DNA from: Armatimonadota bacterium
GTDB taxonomy: Bacteria > Armatimonadota > Fimbriimonadia > Fimbriimonadales > Fimbriimonadaceae
Length of the DNA stretch: 64,000 nt
Direction: 5' to 3'
Assembly (NCBI GenBank): GCA_020438215.1
Contig: JAGQUX010000001.1
Location: 62,001 to 126,000, forward strand
Shown: piece after piece, positions 14,647 through 57,773 of the stretch
Numbering within the stretch: position 1 is the stretch's first letter
Layout of the letters: the number at the start of each line of letters is the position of its first letter
Translations under genes and position numbers: made by a program
Notes under the pieces: generated by a model
Databases searched by the model: none
What the model was told of the DNA's origin: nothing
What the model saw: the letters and a program-made list of their open reading frames with translations, nothing else

Positions 14647-15114
14647 TTAGTTGTCTCGCTCCAGATCGCGCCGCTGGTCCTTTTCTTTGATCGACTCGCG
14701 CTTATCGTAGAGTTTCTTACCACGAGCCACAGCAATAGCAATCTTTGCGCGCCCCGATTTGAAGTAAATCTTAGAGGGGATCAGTGCCAGCCCCTTTTCT
14801 TCGGACTTGCGCCGCAAAGCCTCAATCTCTTTCTTATGCATCAAGAGTTTGCGATCTCGCCGGCGATCCGGTTGAAAAGCCGTCGTAAATGTGTAGGGCT
14901 CAATATCCAGATTGAAAAGCCACAACTCGCCGTTCTTGACCGCGCAGTATGCATCGGTCAAGTTCGCGCGACCCAGATAAAGGCTCTTGACTTCGCTACC
15001 CACCAGAACGATGCCCGCCTCATGAACCTCTTCGAAGTGATAATCGAAGCCTGCCTTACGATTGTTGATCGTGGCTGGCCCTTCGCGCTTCGCCTCTTTT
15101 TTTTTGCCAGCCAT
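14647..15114 (-). CDS. smpB: SsrA-binding protein SmpB
   Basis: A 155-residue protein with ATINNRKAGFDYHFEEVHEA and GIVLVGSEVKSLYLGRANL near the start, YTFTTAFQPDRRRDRKLLMH in the middle and a basic C-terminal tail (KLYDKRESIKEKDQRRDLER), all typical of SmpB. It binds tmRNA and takes part in trans-translation. I chose the ATG at 15114, which gives the usual length; an in-frame Met 39 bp upstream would add an unlikely stretch. A TACAAT hexamer sits 9 nt upstream. I found no tmRNA gene next to it. Confidence 0.94.
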   Translation of the reverse strand: MAGKKKEAKREGPATINNRKAGFDYHFEEVHEAGIVLVGSEVKSLYLGRANLTDAYCAVKNGELWLFNLDIEPYTFTTAFQPDRRRDRKLLMHKKEIEALRRKSEEKGLALIPSKIYFKSGRAKIAIAVARGKKLYDKRESIKEKDQRRDLERDN

Positions 15115-15147
15115 AGGCCGAAAATTGTACCGTCCGAACCTGAGAGG

Positions 15148-15153
15148 TACCAT
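15148..15153 (+). promoter_or_regulatory. TANNNT hexamer directly before the FKBP lipoprotein gene
   Basis: TACCAT ends exactly 6 nt before the ATG at 15160. If it acts as the -10 element, transcription would begin on the A of the start codon. Confidence 0.35.
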
Positions 15154-15159
15154 TTGAAT

Positions 15160-15951
15160 ATGTCGTTATCCCCGCGCGTGAGCCTGATCCTGCTTGCCGT
15201 CGCAACCATGTCCGTCATAGGTTGCGGCCCCAAAAAAGATGAGCCGGTTGAGGCGGACACAGCCAAAGTCGGCATTACTGTGCTGGAAGAAGGCAAAGGA
15301 GAGCAAGCTATCGCAGATGGTGATATGGCTTTTATGCTTTATCGAGGCACGCTCACCGATGGAACCCAATTTGACACCAACATGGATGATCCGACCAAGC
15401 AAAAGCCGTTTGCTTTTGTTGTTGGCGGCCGCGAAGTCATTCCTGGTTGGGATCAGGGTGTTCAAGGCATGAAAGTGGGAGAAAAGCGCAGATTGGAAGT
15501 TCCTTGGATTTTGGGTTACGGCGAGGCTGGAAACGGCACCAGCATTCCCCCAAAAGCTGATCTCAATTTTGAGATTGAATTGGTTTACATCCTCAAAAAA
15601 GGCGAAGATCCATACATCGATGAAGTGGAATCAACGCCCGGCACTGGACCGGAAGCTAAAGATGGCGATGAAGTAGCCATCCACTATAAAGGGATGTACC
15701 TCAACGGGATGGTCTGGGATGACACCCGGTTGCGACCCAAGGGCCCGGAAACCGCAAAATTCACTGTTGGGAATCTTGATAGTGTTGCCCCAGCAGTTTC
15801 CTACGCTGTCAAAGGCATGAAGGCGGGCGGCAAGAAGACCGTAATCTTCCCCTTCACACTCGCTTTTGGGACAATCGGAAACTCCACTATGGAGGGGCGT
15901 CAGATCTACAAAATGGAAATTGAACTCGTTTCGGTCAACGGCAAGAGCTGA
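15160..15951 (+). CDS. Lipoprotein with two FKBP-type peptidyl-prolyl isomerase domains
   Basis: A 263-residue protein with a lipoprotein signal (LLAVATMSVIGC, Cys22). Residues about 40 to 147 form a complete FKBP domain: GDMAFMLYRGTLTDGTQFDT, VIPGWDQGVQGMKVGEKRRL, IPWILGYGEAG-like segment and IPPKADLNFEIELV. A second, more diverged FKBP-like domain follows (GDEVAIHYKGMYLNGMVWDD, YAVKGMKAGGKKTVIFP, FTLAFG). The function is likely folding of envelope proteins. The frame stays open upstream through smpB on the other strand, but the lipobox fixes the start at 15160. Confidence 0.9.
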   Translation: MSLSPRVSLILLAVATMSVIGCGPKKDEPVEADTAKVGITVLEEGKGEQAIADGDMAFMLYRGTLTDGTQFDTNMDDPTKQKPFAFVVGGREVIPGWDQGVQGMKVGEKRRLEVPWILGYGEAGNGTSIPPKADLNFEIELVYILKKGEDPYIDEVESTPGTGPEAKDGDEVAIHYKGMYLNGMVWDDTRLRPKGPETAKFTVGNLDSVAPAVSYAVKGMKAGGKKTVIFPFTLAFGTIGNSTMEGRQIYKMEIELVSVNGKS

Positions 15952-17742: not shown

Positions 17743-17748
17743 ATTTTA
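17743..17748 (-). promoter_or_regulatory. TANNNT hexamer before the FmdB gene
   Basis: TAAAAT on the minus strand, 8 nt before the ATG at 17734; no Shine-Dalgarno between them. Confidence 0.35.
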
Positions 17749-23702: not shown

Positions 23703-23708
23703 AGTCTA
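23703..23708 (-). promoter_or_regulatory. TANNNT hexamer before pruA
   Basis: TAGACT on the minus strand, 7 nt before the ATG at 23695; no Shine-Dalgarno is present. Confidence 0.4.
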
Positions 23709-23733: not shown

Positions 23734-23739
23734 AATAAT
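23734..23739 (+). promoter_or_regulatory. -10-like hexamer before the phosphotransferase gene
   Basis: AATAAT, 7 nt before the ATG at 23747, in the 51-bp gap between divergent genes. Confidence 0.35.
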
Positions 23740-28120: not shown

Positions 28121-28140
28121 TCTTCAATCCTAGTTTTTTA

Positions 28141-44425: not shown

Positions 44426-45121
44426 CTACTGGGGCTTGCGGAAGAGCCCTTTGCCCAGCCAAAGCGGGTGAAGTTCCAATGCCAGATGCTTGGATTTGAA
44501 CATGGGATCATCGGCGACACGAGCTTCGATCTGTTTGTTATCAATCTCGCCATCAGCCGGGAAAAGATAGAAGCCACGCCACGTTTCGTGCCCCATCACT
44601 GGGCCAGCAACGCAAAGTTCGCCTTTGTCCATCAAGTTGGCAATCGTACCGAGGTGAGAAGCTTGGAGTTCATTTCCTTGCTTTTCCGACCATGTTTCGC
44701 CCTTCTTCGCAATGCCCAGAACATAGGTTCCCATACCGAGATCTTCTTCTGGCCAAGCGAAAACAGTGGAGTCGACAATCCATTCGTGGAGTTCAATCTT
44801 CAGTAGGCCATGCTTTACGTAAGGATCGGCTTCAAATTCTTTCGGAACATCTTTTTTGGGGAGAGTGAGGATCACGATCCCACGCATGTCTCCCCCACCA
44901 GCGAACGGGCCTGCAACCGGCGACTTCTTTTCTTTGTAGAGACGCATCAGATTCGCAATATGGTCTTCCTGCATCTTGGTCAGTTCATCGGCAGTGAATT
45001 TCTCACGACCAGAACCGCGCGTAAAAATCAAAAACGTGTGTTGCTTCAAATTTTCCATCTTGACTTGTGGTTTTGCGTCTTGTCCCATCATTGCCGCCAA
45101 ACAAACCGCCGCTGTGATCAT
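44426..45121 (-). CDS. Exported protein with two YciI-like domains
   Basis: A 231-residue protein with a short hydrophobic start (MITAAVCLAAMMG) and two ferredoxin-like YCII-type domains: HTFLIFTRGSGREKFTADEL...LKIELHEWIV and YVLGIAKKGETWSEKQGNEL...HLALELHPLWL. The usual YciI is a single domain of about 95 residues, cytosolic, and of unknown enzymatic role. Here two copies are joined and probably exported. Start at ATG 45121; the upstream in-frame start adds ten residues ahead of the signal. Confidence 0.7.
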   Translation of the reverse strand: MITAAVCLAAMMGQDAKPQVKMENLKQHTFLIFTRGSGREKFTADELTKMQEDHIANLMRLYKEKKSPVAGPFAGGGDMRGIVILTLPKKDVPKEFEADPYVKHGLLKIELHEWIVDSTVFAWPEEDLGMGTYVLGIAKKGETWSEKQGNELQASHLGTIANLMDKGELCVAGPVMGHETWRGFYLFPADGEIDNKQIEARVADDPMFKSKHLALELHPLWLGKGLFRKPQ

Positions 45122-45127
45122 CCCCCT

Positions 45128-45133
45128 ATTATA
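45128..45133 (-). promoter_or_regulatory. TATAAT hexamer exactly 6 nt before the YciI-type gene
   Basis: TATAAT on the minus strand followed by agggggATG. At standard -10 to +1 distance the transcript would begin at the ATG. No -35 hexamer at 16 to 18 bp. Confidence 0.5.
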
Positions 45134-45190
45134 CGGGCTGGGCCGGCTCACAAAGTTCCGAGCTCTGCACGAAACCCAACCAAAAGCGGC

Positions 45191-45196
45191 TAGAAT
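45191..45196 (+). promoter_or_regulatory. TAGAAT hexamer exactly 6 nt before the MFS gene
   Basis: TAGAAT-cccatc-GTG; the transcript would begin at the start codon. The opposite TATAAT is 60 bp away on the other strand. Confidence 0.45.
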
Positions 45197-45202
45197 CCCA
45201 TC

Positions 45203-46483
45203 GTGGGCAAGGCCTCATCAGGATACGTAAACAAGTTCGGCTGGAATCTTGGGTTCAGTGCGTACTGGTTCGCCACCAGCTACAAATGGTTCATCCTGCT
45301 GTTCGTTTTTCTGCCTAAACAAGTCGCCGATATTGTCCCCGGCGGTGAGAAGAACACCTACTGGGGTCTGATCCTCGGGACAGGGGCGATCTGGGCGGTG
45401 ATAGGCCCGGCAGTGTTCGGAAGGCTCCACGAAACGAAAGGCGGAATCTGGGCAAAGCGGCACATCTGGCTCGCGATAGGAAGCGCAGGCACCCTCATCG
45501 CTCTGATGGTTCTCGTCGGCGCAAGTAGCCTGTGGATTCTGGCTCTGGGGTATTTCCTGCTCCAACTCAGCGACGATGTGGGAACAGGCCCTTACGCGGG
45601 GATGGTCGCCGAAGTCGTTCCCGAAGAACACCGAGGCTTCTCTTCGGCGATTTTGGGGGGATTCAAGCTGTTCGGCCAGATCGCTTCCGCGATCATGGCG
45701 TTGGTTCTCAAGAAGATTGAGCTCGTCTACATCGGGATTGCGACGGTCAATCTCATCTGCGCGATCATCACGATCCTCACGATCAAAAATCTCCCTGACA
45801 AAGAGATTGATCCGGATGCCAAGTCCGAAACGTTTGTCAAGGAGTATCTAGCCCCATTCAAGAACTCCGACTTTGTGAAAGTGTGGCTGAACCGCATGAT
45901 CGTTGCGTTCGCGTTTGCCAGCATCACCGCCTACACCCGCAATTTCTTGGAAGACACCTACGCGGCAACAAAATCCATTGAGTTTTTCTTGATGAATTTC
46001 AAAAATCCGGAGTCGTATGCGAACGATGCCGCCAACATCCTCGCCCTCACAATCTCATTCACGGGAATTCTGGGTTCGCTGTTCAGTGCCAGATACGCCG
46101 ACAGGATTGGTCGTAAGAAGCTCCTAGTGATCTCCGCCATGATCATGGCGATTGCGCTGGTGCCAATTGCGATGACCAAGGATTTCAACCTCATCTGGAT
46201 GATGGTCGCTGGGTTTGGGCTCGGGAACGGGCTTTATGCGGCGGCAGATTGGGCGCTCGCCAGCGATGTCCTCCCCGATCAATCTCGCCCCGCCACCCAG
46301 ATGGGGGCATGGCAGTCCAGCGAAACGGCGGTGCAAATCCCCGCCGGCATCGTTATGGGGGCTCTGATTGATACGCTCAACCGCCAATCGGCGGGGCTGG
46401 GCTACCAAGCCATGCTCATCACCGCCGCGACGCTTTTCTTCTGCTCAACGTTTTTGGTGAAACGGATTCGGGGGTCGCACTAA
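45203..46483 (+). CDS. MFS transporter
   Basis: A 426-residue protein with 12 predicted membrane segments. The motif between helices 8 and 9 (SLFSARYADRIGRKKLLVIS) is the D-R-x-G-R-x-x signature of the major facilitator superfamily; the first half has the shorter GPAVFGRLHETKGGIWAKR version. The substrate is unknown. The start is GTG. Confidence 0.85.
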   Translation: MGKASSGYVNKFGWNLGFSAYWFATSYKWFILLFVFLPKQVADIVPGGEKNTYWGLILGTGAIWAVIGPAVFGRLHETKGGIWAKRHIWLAIGSAGTLIALMVLVGASSLWILALGYFLLQLSDDVGTGPYAGMVAEVVPEEHRGFSSAILGGFKLFGQIASAIMALVLKKIELVYIGIATVNLICAIITILTIKNLPDKEIDPDAKSETFVKEYLAPFKNSDFVKVWLNRMIVAFAFASITAYTRNFLEDTYAATKSIEFFLMNFKNPESYANDAANILALTISFTGILGSLFSARYADRIGRKKLLVISAMIMAIALVPIAMTKDFNLIWMMVAGFGLGNGLYAAADWALASDVLPDQSRPATQMGAWQSSETAVQIPAGIVMGALIDTLNRQSAGLGYQAMLITAATLFFCSTFLVKRIRGSH

Positions 46484-46484
46484 G

Positions 46485-46490
46485 TAGAAT
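46485..46490 (+). promoter_or_regulatory. TAGAAT hexamer exactly 6 nt before the AlbA_2 gene
   Basis: TAGAAT-tcatat-ATG directly after the MFS stop codon, which overlaps it. It would give a leaderless transcript. Confidence 0.45.
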
Positions 46491-46496
46491 TCATAT

Positions 46497-47498
46497 ATGA
46501 AAACACCTGCTACGGAATTGCTCGAACGAATCCCGCAGATGACTGGTCAGGAATTTATTGACGAAGAATGGTCAGAAAATGACTGGCTGGAATTCAAAAC
46601 AATTCATCGGGGTAATGACGACTGGAAGGATGTTCTCAAGAAGAACTTCACAAAAGCTGCATGTGCTTTTGCAAACGGCTCCGGAGGAATGATAGTCTGG
46701 GGCATAAAATGCTCCAGCGACAAAGCCACCAAAATAGTCCCAATTGAAGAAATTGAGGAAGTACATCGGCATCTGGACGGATGGTCTTACCAAATTACTG
46801 AGCAGCCTATTCAGGGAATCCGGCATGGCAAATTTGACGCCAACAATTTGATTTACACATACGTACCGGAGAGTTCGATTGCTCCGCACAGAAGCGTTTT
46901 AGATGAAGTCTTCTATATGCGCTCAGGTTCAAATAGCATCAAGATGCCTTTTCGCATGATTCAGTCGATGTTCTTGGCACGACAAAAAGGGAGAGTTAGT
47001 ATTGAAATAAATGCAGAGAAACTGTTTGACTTCTCCCCTAAACTTGAGATTAGAATCATCAACACAGGAAGTATTGTACTTTCTGAGCCAGTCCTCTTTT
47101 ATTCTGCTCAGAACATTGAATGCATCCATCCTCAACTATCGGGAGAATATAAATCTGTTTTCCCGAAAGAGCTTTTTCATAATGCAAAGTTACCTCCAAT
47201 TATTGCACCATACCAAATCATCACGAAAGATATCGGTGAATTCAAAGGTCGGAGCGCACAAGCACTTTTTCATTTGGTCGATAAAAACACGACAATAGGC
47301 TTTTCTTTTCGGATACCCGAAAACCACTACAATAAATGCCGCGACTATGCAAGTGCATCCTCCCCTTGGATTGAATTGCCAGCTTTGAGCGAAGTCGAGT
47401 TCCAAACAGCACTCCTAGACGATAGGCATTTCTCTCCATATTTTCTCGATGTTGAGCGAGGCACTGGACGGCTCTTCATTAACAAAGTGCCTGAATAA
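46497..47498 (+). CDS. AlbA_2 (Schlafen-type) ATP-binding domain protein
   Basis: A 333-residue protein. The N-terminal 150 residues follow the AlbA_2 pattern: WLEFKTIHRG, FTKAACAFANGSGGMIVWGI and the later HGKFDANNLIYTYVPESS with RSGSNSIKMPFRMIQSM. The C-terminal half is beta-rich and unknown. Bacterial AlbA_2 proteins often act in nucleic-acid or regulatory settings and are found in defence regions, but no partner is present here. Its GC content and codon use are more AT-rich than the neighbours, which suggests transfer. Confidence 0.75.
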   Translation: MKTPATELLERIPQMTGQEFIDEEWSENDWLEFKTIHRGNDDWKDVLKKNFTKAACAFANGSGGMIVWGIKCSSDKATKIVPIEEIEEVHRHLDGWSYQITEQPIQGIRHGKFDANNLIYTYVPESSIAPHRSVLDEVFYMRSGSNSIKMPFRMIQSMFLARQKGRVSIEINAEKLFDFSPKLEIRIINTGSIVLSEPVLFYSAQNIECIHPQLSGEYKSVFPKELFHNAKLPPIIAPYQIITKDIGEFKGRSAQALFHLVDKNTTIGFSFRIPENHYNKCRDYASASSPWIELPALSEVEFQTALLDDRHFSPYFLDVERGTGRLFINKVPE

Positions 47499-47529: not shown

Positions 47530-47535
47530 TAAAAT
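47530..47535 (+). promoter_or_regulatory. TANNNT hexamer before the GYF-TM2 gene
   Basis: TAAAAT, 9 nt before the ATG at 47545. Confidence 0.3.
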
Positions 47536-52088: not shown

Positions 52089-52105
52089 AGGCGTACTTTA
52101 CCGCT

Positions 52106-52472: not shown

Positions 52473-52478
52473 AGATTA
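52473..52478 (-). promoter_or_regulatory. TANNNT hexamer before the MerT-like gene
   Basis: TAATCT on the minus strand, 7 nt before the GTG at 52465. Confidence 0.35.
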
Positions 52479-55117: not shown

Positions 55118-55151
55118 ATGGGAGCATCTTCACTTGGTAAGATGCTCCCAT
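55118..55151 (+). terminator. Hairpin after gyrA that reaches into the next start codon
   Basis: A perfect 13-bp stem (atgggagcatctt / aagatgctcccat; 55118-55130 and 55139-55151) with an 8-nt loop, followed by TGGCTTTTTC. It looks like the gyrA terminator, but the last two bases of the stem are the A and T of the start codon of the next gene. Confidence 0.7.
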
Positions 55152-56882: not shown

Positions 56883-57773
56883 TTAGTCCACCTTAGGGTT
56901 CGGAATATAGGTTCCACCCCGACAGTTCCGCAGATAGTTGAGGGAATGCACCTGCCCCGTCATTTCCAAGTCGTCCTTATAGACTGGGTCATGCCATCCC
57001 TCAATATCAATCGCGCCCTTCCAACCAGCCTTGCGAAGGATCGAAATCACATCTGTCCAATTCGTATCGCCAAAGCCCGGCGTGCGATGCCAGACAAACC
57101 ACTTGCCGCACCGCAGACCTTCGCGTTTCAGAACATCCCACTCAATCGAAGCATCCTTGCCGTGAATATGATAAACACGATCCACCCACTTCTTCAGTTG
57201 TGGAAGCGGATCGATCAAACTCACCATTTGGTGGCATGGCTCCCACTCCAATCCGAGCGTCTCGCCAGGCACAGCATCGAACATCATTTCCCACGCTCTG
57301 GGGGAATGAGCAATGTTCCACTTCGGCAACTCCCAACTCCCGCCCATGTCACAGTTTTCAAAAGCGATCTTCACGCCGCAATCCTCCGCCACTTTTGCGA
57401 GATTTCCAAACACCTCAATAAATCGCGGCATGGATTCATCTACCGGCTTCCCTTCAACCGCGCCAGCAAACCCACAAACAACTTCCGCACCAAAGCTCTT
57501 GGCCGAACGGATGAGCCGCTCCCAATCTTTCGCCGTCCGATCATCAGTGAGAGGGTTACCGTAAAGCCCCACGCTGGAGATCACGGCACGCCCGGCGAGC
57601 ATATCTTGCACCTGCTTGCCCAGTTCATCAAGATCACCTTCCGGGAGGTACTGCCAGTTGGTGAGCTGGAACGACTCAAATCCGTGCTGGACAATCTGGG
57701 GCAGGTAGGTCAAAGCCTTGTCCATTGAGGCCAGCGTGCCGATGAGAATATCTTGGTGGTTTTCGCGGGACAT
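56883..57773 (-). CDS. Sugar phosphate isomerase/epimerase family TIM barrel
   Basis: A 296-residue AP-endonuclease-2-type TIM barrel (xylose isomerase-like). The N-terminus ILIGTLASMDKALTYLPQIV and the metal-binding positions KIAFENCDMGG, LGLEWEPCHQM, YHIHGKDASIEWD and IDIEGWHDP are present. The metal-dependent isomerisation or epimerisation of a sugar or inositol derivative is likely, together with the adjacent gluconolactonase-like gene. I use ATG 57773, preceded by GAGGG; the in-frame upstream Met adds 15 unrelated residues. Confidence 0.85.
   Translation of the reverse strand: MSRENHQDILIGTLASMDKALTYLPQIVQHGFESFQLTNWQYLPEGDLDELGKQVQDMLAGRAVISSVGLYGNPLTDDRTAKDWERLIRSAKSFGAEVVCGFAGAVEGKPVDESMPRFIEVFGNLAKVAEDCGVKIAFENCDMGGSWELPKWNIAHSPRAWEMMFDAVPGETLGLEWEPCHQMVSLIDPLPQLKKWVDRVYHIHGKDASIEWDVLKREGLRCGKWFVWHRTPGFGDTNWTDVISILRKAGWKGAIDIEGWHDPVYKDDLEMTGQVHSLNYLRNCRGGTYIPNPKVD

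Follow-up and report, generated by a model that had tools for sequence, protein, structure and literature searches.

Hexamers of the form TANNNT that end 6 nt before the start codon in a genome of the Fimbriimonadaceae (Armatimonadota) are very probably -10 boxes of the housekeeping sigma factor, from which transcription would start on the start codon or within a few nucleotides of it, giving leaderless mRNAs. This reading was put forward in a preliminary description of the 64,000-nucleotide stretch of DNA analysed here (the window), and it is supported by genome-wide enrichment of the hexamer, by a pyrimidine at -1 and a purine at +1 at the start codon, and by conservation between orthologues. 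In the proposed mechanism, the placement of the -10 box sets the start of RNA polymerase on, or a few nucleotides from, the start codon. Sigma would bind the box and transcripts would start there, with a resulting 5' UTR of about 0-5 nt and translation without a Shine-Dalgarno (SD) site, and ribosomes would initiate on the 5'-terminal AUG or GUG, by analogy with Deinococcus. The remaining genes, mostly inside operons, would be served by an intact but sparse SD system.

The window is part of a 2.64-Mb MAG in 119 contigs, with about 50% GC, belonging to the class Fimbriimonadia. The gyrA of this MAG is closest to those of Fimbriimonadaceae MAGs (83% to ACE_ARM8, CP075366).

Start-proximal hexamers in the window

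Four -10-like hexamers had been described as ending exactly 6 nt before an ATG or GTG, and re-reading of the sequences showed all four to be right, with the minus-strand coordinates of the preliminary description denoting the 3' end of the hexamer. On the minus strand, TATAAT (45128..45133), followed by AGGGGG, precedes ATG 45121 of a YCII-related gene (44426..45121; PF03795), for which start calling favoured this ATG over the longest-ORF GTG 45151. The orthologue in ACE_ARM8 also has TATAAT 6 nt before its ATG, and in another member of the genus TATACT is found 9 nt before the ATG. On the plus strand, TAGAAT (45191..45196) and CCCATC precede GTG 45203 of an MFS transporter gene (45203..46483; PF07690), and a second TAGAAT (46485..46490), followed by TCATAT and ATG 46497, lies inside the 13-nt gap between this gene and a Schlafen/AlbA_2-domain gene (46497..47498, plus strand; PF04326). 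Comparison upstream of the MFS orthologues did not reveal consistently present boxes, and the Schlafen-domain gene has almost no orthologues within the genus; the candidate boxes of 45203 and 46497 are without individual conservation support. The absence of an SD sequence between hexamer and start codon holds for the listed sites, although at 45121 an AGGGGG touches the ATG, too close to act as an SD.

The fourth hexamer, TACCAT (15148..15153, plus strand), lies within GGTACCAT and is followed by TTGAAT and ATG 15160 of an FKBP-type peptidyl-prolyl isomerase gene (15160..15951, plus strand; PF00254). An identical GGTACCAT-6 nt-ATG arrangement occurs in 8/8 genomes of the genus. Its divergent partner is TACAAT (15124..15129, minus strand), located 9 nt before ATG 15114 of smpB (14647..15114, minus strand; PF01668), where TANANT at the same spacing of 9 nt is also present in all eight genomes. 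In each of them the two genes diverge from a shared intergenic region of 45 bp, in which the two start-proximal -10 boxes are separated by 18 bp. Within the FKBP box, GGTACC is an invariant palindrome and may therefore double as an operator.

Among the looser cases, reported with spacings of 7 to 9 nt, four of the five are TANNNT, while that at 23734 reads AATAAT and does not belong to this pattern. The four, read from the sequence of the window, are TAGACT (23703..23708, minus strand), 7 nt before ATG 23695 of an aldehyde dehydrogenase gene whose start is uncertain; TAATCT (52473..52478, minus strand), 7 nt before GTG 52465; TAAAAT (17743..17748, minus strand), 8 nt before ATG 17734 of a zinc-ribbon gene; and TAAAAT (47530..47535, plus strand), 9 nt before ATG 47545 of a TM2-domain gene. 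For the zinc-ribbon gene, a box was looked for upstream of the ACE_ARM8 orthologue and was not found. Further TANNNT cases in the window had been overlooked, namely the smpB box (15129, minus strand) and those at 28132, 52100 and 56895 (all minus strand) and 55138. A weak candidate, TAGGAT (28127..28132), stands 6 nt before ATG 28120 of clpX, behind clpP, and no box was found upstream of clpX in ACE_ARM8. TAAAGT (52095..52100), a -10 hexamer 6 nt before GTG 52088 of a PAP2-family gene, has a counterpart in the ACE_ARM8 orthologue, with TAGAAT 6 nt before the GTG. TAAGAT (55138..55143, plus strand) precedes ATG 55150 by 6 nt, and TAAGGT at 56895 has a spacing of 7 nt. With starts called from coding signal only, TANNNT at spacing 6 is found in 5 of the 58 window genes, compared with 0.6-0.7 expected (P = 7e-4).

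Enrichment and conservation across genomes

The statistics cover 822 kb of the 2.64 Mb, that is, the window and 758 kb of the same genome, with 756 genes called by the author's own caller. In 750 genes with starts chosen from coding signal (codon statistics) alone, TANNNT ends 6 nt before the start in 70.7 per 1000 starts (7.1%), against about 11 (about 1.1%) at most other spacings; at the near spacings of 7, 8 and 9 nt the values are 31, 16 and 32 per 1000, and before internal in-frame start codons spacing 6 yields 4.4 per 1000. A blind scan of hexamer patterns in which three or four positions were fixed ranked TANANT at spacing 6 first. Unsupervised EM from random starting points, in which gene starts were left free, yielded a GGTAnAAT class (29-36%) with a modal spacing of 6; a single-motif EM merged the classes and was uninformative. 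In 1.6 Mb of the relative ACE_ARM8, TANNNT at spacing 6 reaches 84 per 1000 over a background of 12.7, so that the genome-wide enrichment by which the preliminary description was to be judged is present by a wide margin in both genomes. Whole-genome counts gave 27 matches of TAGAAT-N6-ATG vs 3 of the reversed pattern and 63 of TANAAT-N6-ATG vs 9, while the shifted TANAAT-N15-ATG gave 22 vs 16. By the strict TANNNT excess, some 10-12% of all genes, and about 27% of those in divergent arrangement, would use the box, and the mixture model allows up to about a third.

The same pipeline detected TANNNT at spacing 6 in 0/188 genes of 250 kb of E. coli K-12, whereas 150 kb of D. radiodurans MP1 gave 6/122 over a background of about 0.5%, with C or T at -1 in 8/8. 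Akkermansia-type loci, initially intended as the negative control, were dropped in favour of E. coli, being repeated copies of one gyrA neighbourhood with poor gene calling.

The box is conserved where the surrounding sequence is not. In 261 orthologue pairs with homologous starts, a box at 6-9 nt was common to both members in 27, compared with 8.2 expected (odds ratio 14.6, P = 1e-12); at the control spacing of 16-19 no box was shared in any of the 261 pairs, and upstream identity outside the box was close to random. The frequency of the box also varies with gene arrangement: 31% of divergent genes have it at 6-9 nt vs 13% of genes with a co-directional neighbour no more than 30 nt away (control 3-5%), figures that come from EM-refined starts and thus lean somewhat towards finding the motif, while the spacing figures were obtained without this refinement. 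The suggestion that genes with the box are first in their units therefore describes a tendency and no rule, as gene 46497 itself begins 13 nt downstream of its predecessor.

These data bear on the explanation that TA-rich hexamers, or the TAA and TAG stop codons of preceding genes, come to stand before start codons by chance or base composition. TAA and TAG are indeed stop codons, and 46485 is located just behind one. However, the signal is at its strongest where genes diverge and no stop codon lies upstream, and a stop-codon artefact is rejected on this ground; the peak at one spacing is sharp, the reversed-pattern and shifted-spacing controls are low, and E. coli is negative. Chance is refuted for the genome-wide signal by the enrichment, the orthologues and E. 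coli, and as a general account we consider its probability next to negligible; for single unconserved sites it is possible.

Beyond this genome, matches of TANAAT-N6-ATG outnumber those of the reversed control in every one of the 88 genomes of the order (4899 vs 1029) and in 199/205 genomes of the phylum, with a weak excess in some families. In two genomes of one family (f9) the enrichment is very strong, with 345 vs 28 and 286 vs 41 matches, and another family (f12) shows little (1254 vs 860 over 13 genomes); therefore, the use of this mode would seem to differ widely within the phylum, with the family-level ratios being rough, as the reversed pattern controls mainly for base composition.

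Anatomy of the proposed promoters, leader length and Shine-Dalgarno context

Promoter anatomy was described on 171 spacing-6 genes pooled from the own genome and ACE_ARM8. G is favoured at -14 (50%) and -13 (53%), and A at -9 and -8. Immediately before the start codon, 80% of these genes have C or T and 4% have G, compared with C or T in 49% of genes without a box (P = 2e-14), and the contrast is also present among divergent genes alone. A pyrimidine at -1 together with a purine at +1 is the general bacterial preference at transcription start sites. The occurrence of this signature at the start codon therefore places +1 most likely on the start codon itself.

One could also propose that the -10 boxes are real but that most leaders are short, of several nucleotides, or that +1 falls just inside the gene with translation from a downstream start. 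Enrichment extends to spacings 7-11, and at smpB a box spaced 9 nt from the start is conserved; therefore some leaders of 1-5 nt are likely. As an account of most genes this proposal is nonetheless improbable, since the modal spacing is 6 nt and the pyrimidine lies directly before the start codon. In the pooled genes, the -1 pyrimidine preference is strong at box spacings of 6, 7 and 9 nt and absent at 8, and its presence at 9 but not at 8 is unexplained by a fixed distance from -10 to +1.

The -35 hexamers had been called poor. Matches of 4/6 or better are at the shuffled level and there is almost no information at the -35 positions, although a small subset shows an excess of 5/6 matches (6.4% vs 2.7%). 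GG precedes 39% of the hexamers that lack both A's vs 3% of those with both (P = 8e-7), and this trade-off between GG and hexamer strength is the compensation expected of promoter parts.

SD sequences follow the opposite distribution to the box. SD 4-mers are found in 30% of genes close behind a co-directional gene vs 15% of divergent genes (again with EM-refined starts), and box and SD exclude each other, with 9 genes having both compared with about 32 expected. The anti-SD CCTCCTT is intact in the 16S rRNA of relatives (GGATCACCTCCTT), from which it was read, as the 16S was not found in the source MAG itself. In the own genome and ACE_ARM8, the median length of divergent intergenic regions falls from 161-171 bp where neither gene has a box to 101-116 bp where one does and about 80 bp where both do.

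It could be argued that the motif is a translation signal, an AT-rich S1-type or non-canonical ribosome site, and no promoter. This would suit its position near the start codon and the low SD use in the class, which a 2024 survey put at only 25% for Fimbriimonadia (PMC10783764) and for which the leaderless mode would itself offer a reason. Against it stand the letter pattern, which is that of a sigma70 -10 element, the trade-off between the hexamer and the G's upstream of it, the lower frequency of the box inside operons, where translation signals are still needed, and the Deinococcus box of the same kind, which is bound by RpoD and not replaceable by an RBS (PMC12340547). A purely translational role is thus very improbable, and the hexamers are better regarded as putative -10 boxes.

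We regard as nearly evenly balanced, with a slight lean towards doubt, the wider proposal that leaderless transcription is a main mode of expression in Fimbriimonadales and much of Armatimonadota, driven by a distinct promoter that has a GG-extended -10 and no -35 and whose pyrimidine initiator is joined directly to the start codon. If true, this would, taken together with Deinococcota and Actinomycetota, point to an old origin of the mode in this part of the bacterial tree.

Relation to known leaderless systems

The listing of leaderless-rich groups by Zheng et al. (2011; PMC3160421) is without Armatimonadetes, and PMC9581028 gives 21.6% as the proportion of bacterial species for which GeneMarkS-2 predicted leaderless transcription. 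Our literature search met no description of leaderless genes in Armatimonadota, only the SD survey of the class, although a GeneMarkS-2-type survey may list Fimbriimonas. The data thus support a known kind of gene expression, Deinococcus-like and putatively leaderless, in a phylum for which no description was found. Start-codon-proximal leaderless promoters would thereby be extended to a largely uncultured phylum, gene starts in its many MAGs could be corrected by the rule of TANNNT 6-7 nt upstream, and a further clade would be available in which to ask whether leaderless initiation was inherited from an ancestor or evolved more than once.

Extended -10 promoters of E. coli, which do without a -35, have the form TGnTATAAT. 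The promoters described here resemble them in the G two bases before the hexamer, and the -35 is dispensable there. They differ in avoiding T at -15 and preferring a second G at -13; the TGn element, looked for in the spacing-6 genes, was not found as such, with G-14 in 50% but T-15 in only 16%.

Leaderless transcripts of mycobacteria and other Actinobacteria (PMC3898074, PMC4633059) share with the present case the TANNNT -10 box and a large share of genes; there, the start on AUG or GUG is known from mapped 5' ends, while here it is predicted from sequence.

The closest likeness is to the "-10-motif adjacent to ORF" of Deinococcus-Thermus (PMC12340547, PMC3160421), also TANNNT 6-7 nt before the start codon. 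In Deinococcus, experiments showed that the box, which stands 6-7 nt ahead of about a third of the ORFs, is an RpoD-bound -10 region (PMC12340547). Both systems have a separate RBS class alongside, a comparable share of genes and, in the D. radiodurans sample, C or T before the start codon; the -35 is not needed there, and the sequence here has almost no -35 signal. The Thermus-type GGGA downstream of the hexamer was looked for and not found: 3.3% match it at 3/4 letters or more, and G is not preferred at positions -6 to -4. The present system differs in belonging to another phylum, in its GC content of about 50%, in the marked G at -13/-14 and in being known from sequence alone; instead of the TACACT of Deinococcus-Thermus, its commonest hexamers are TAGAAT, TAAACT and TAAAAT.
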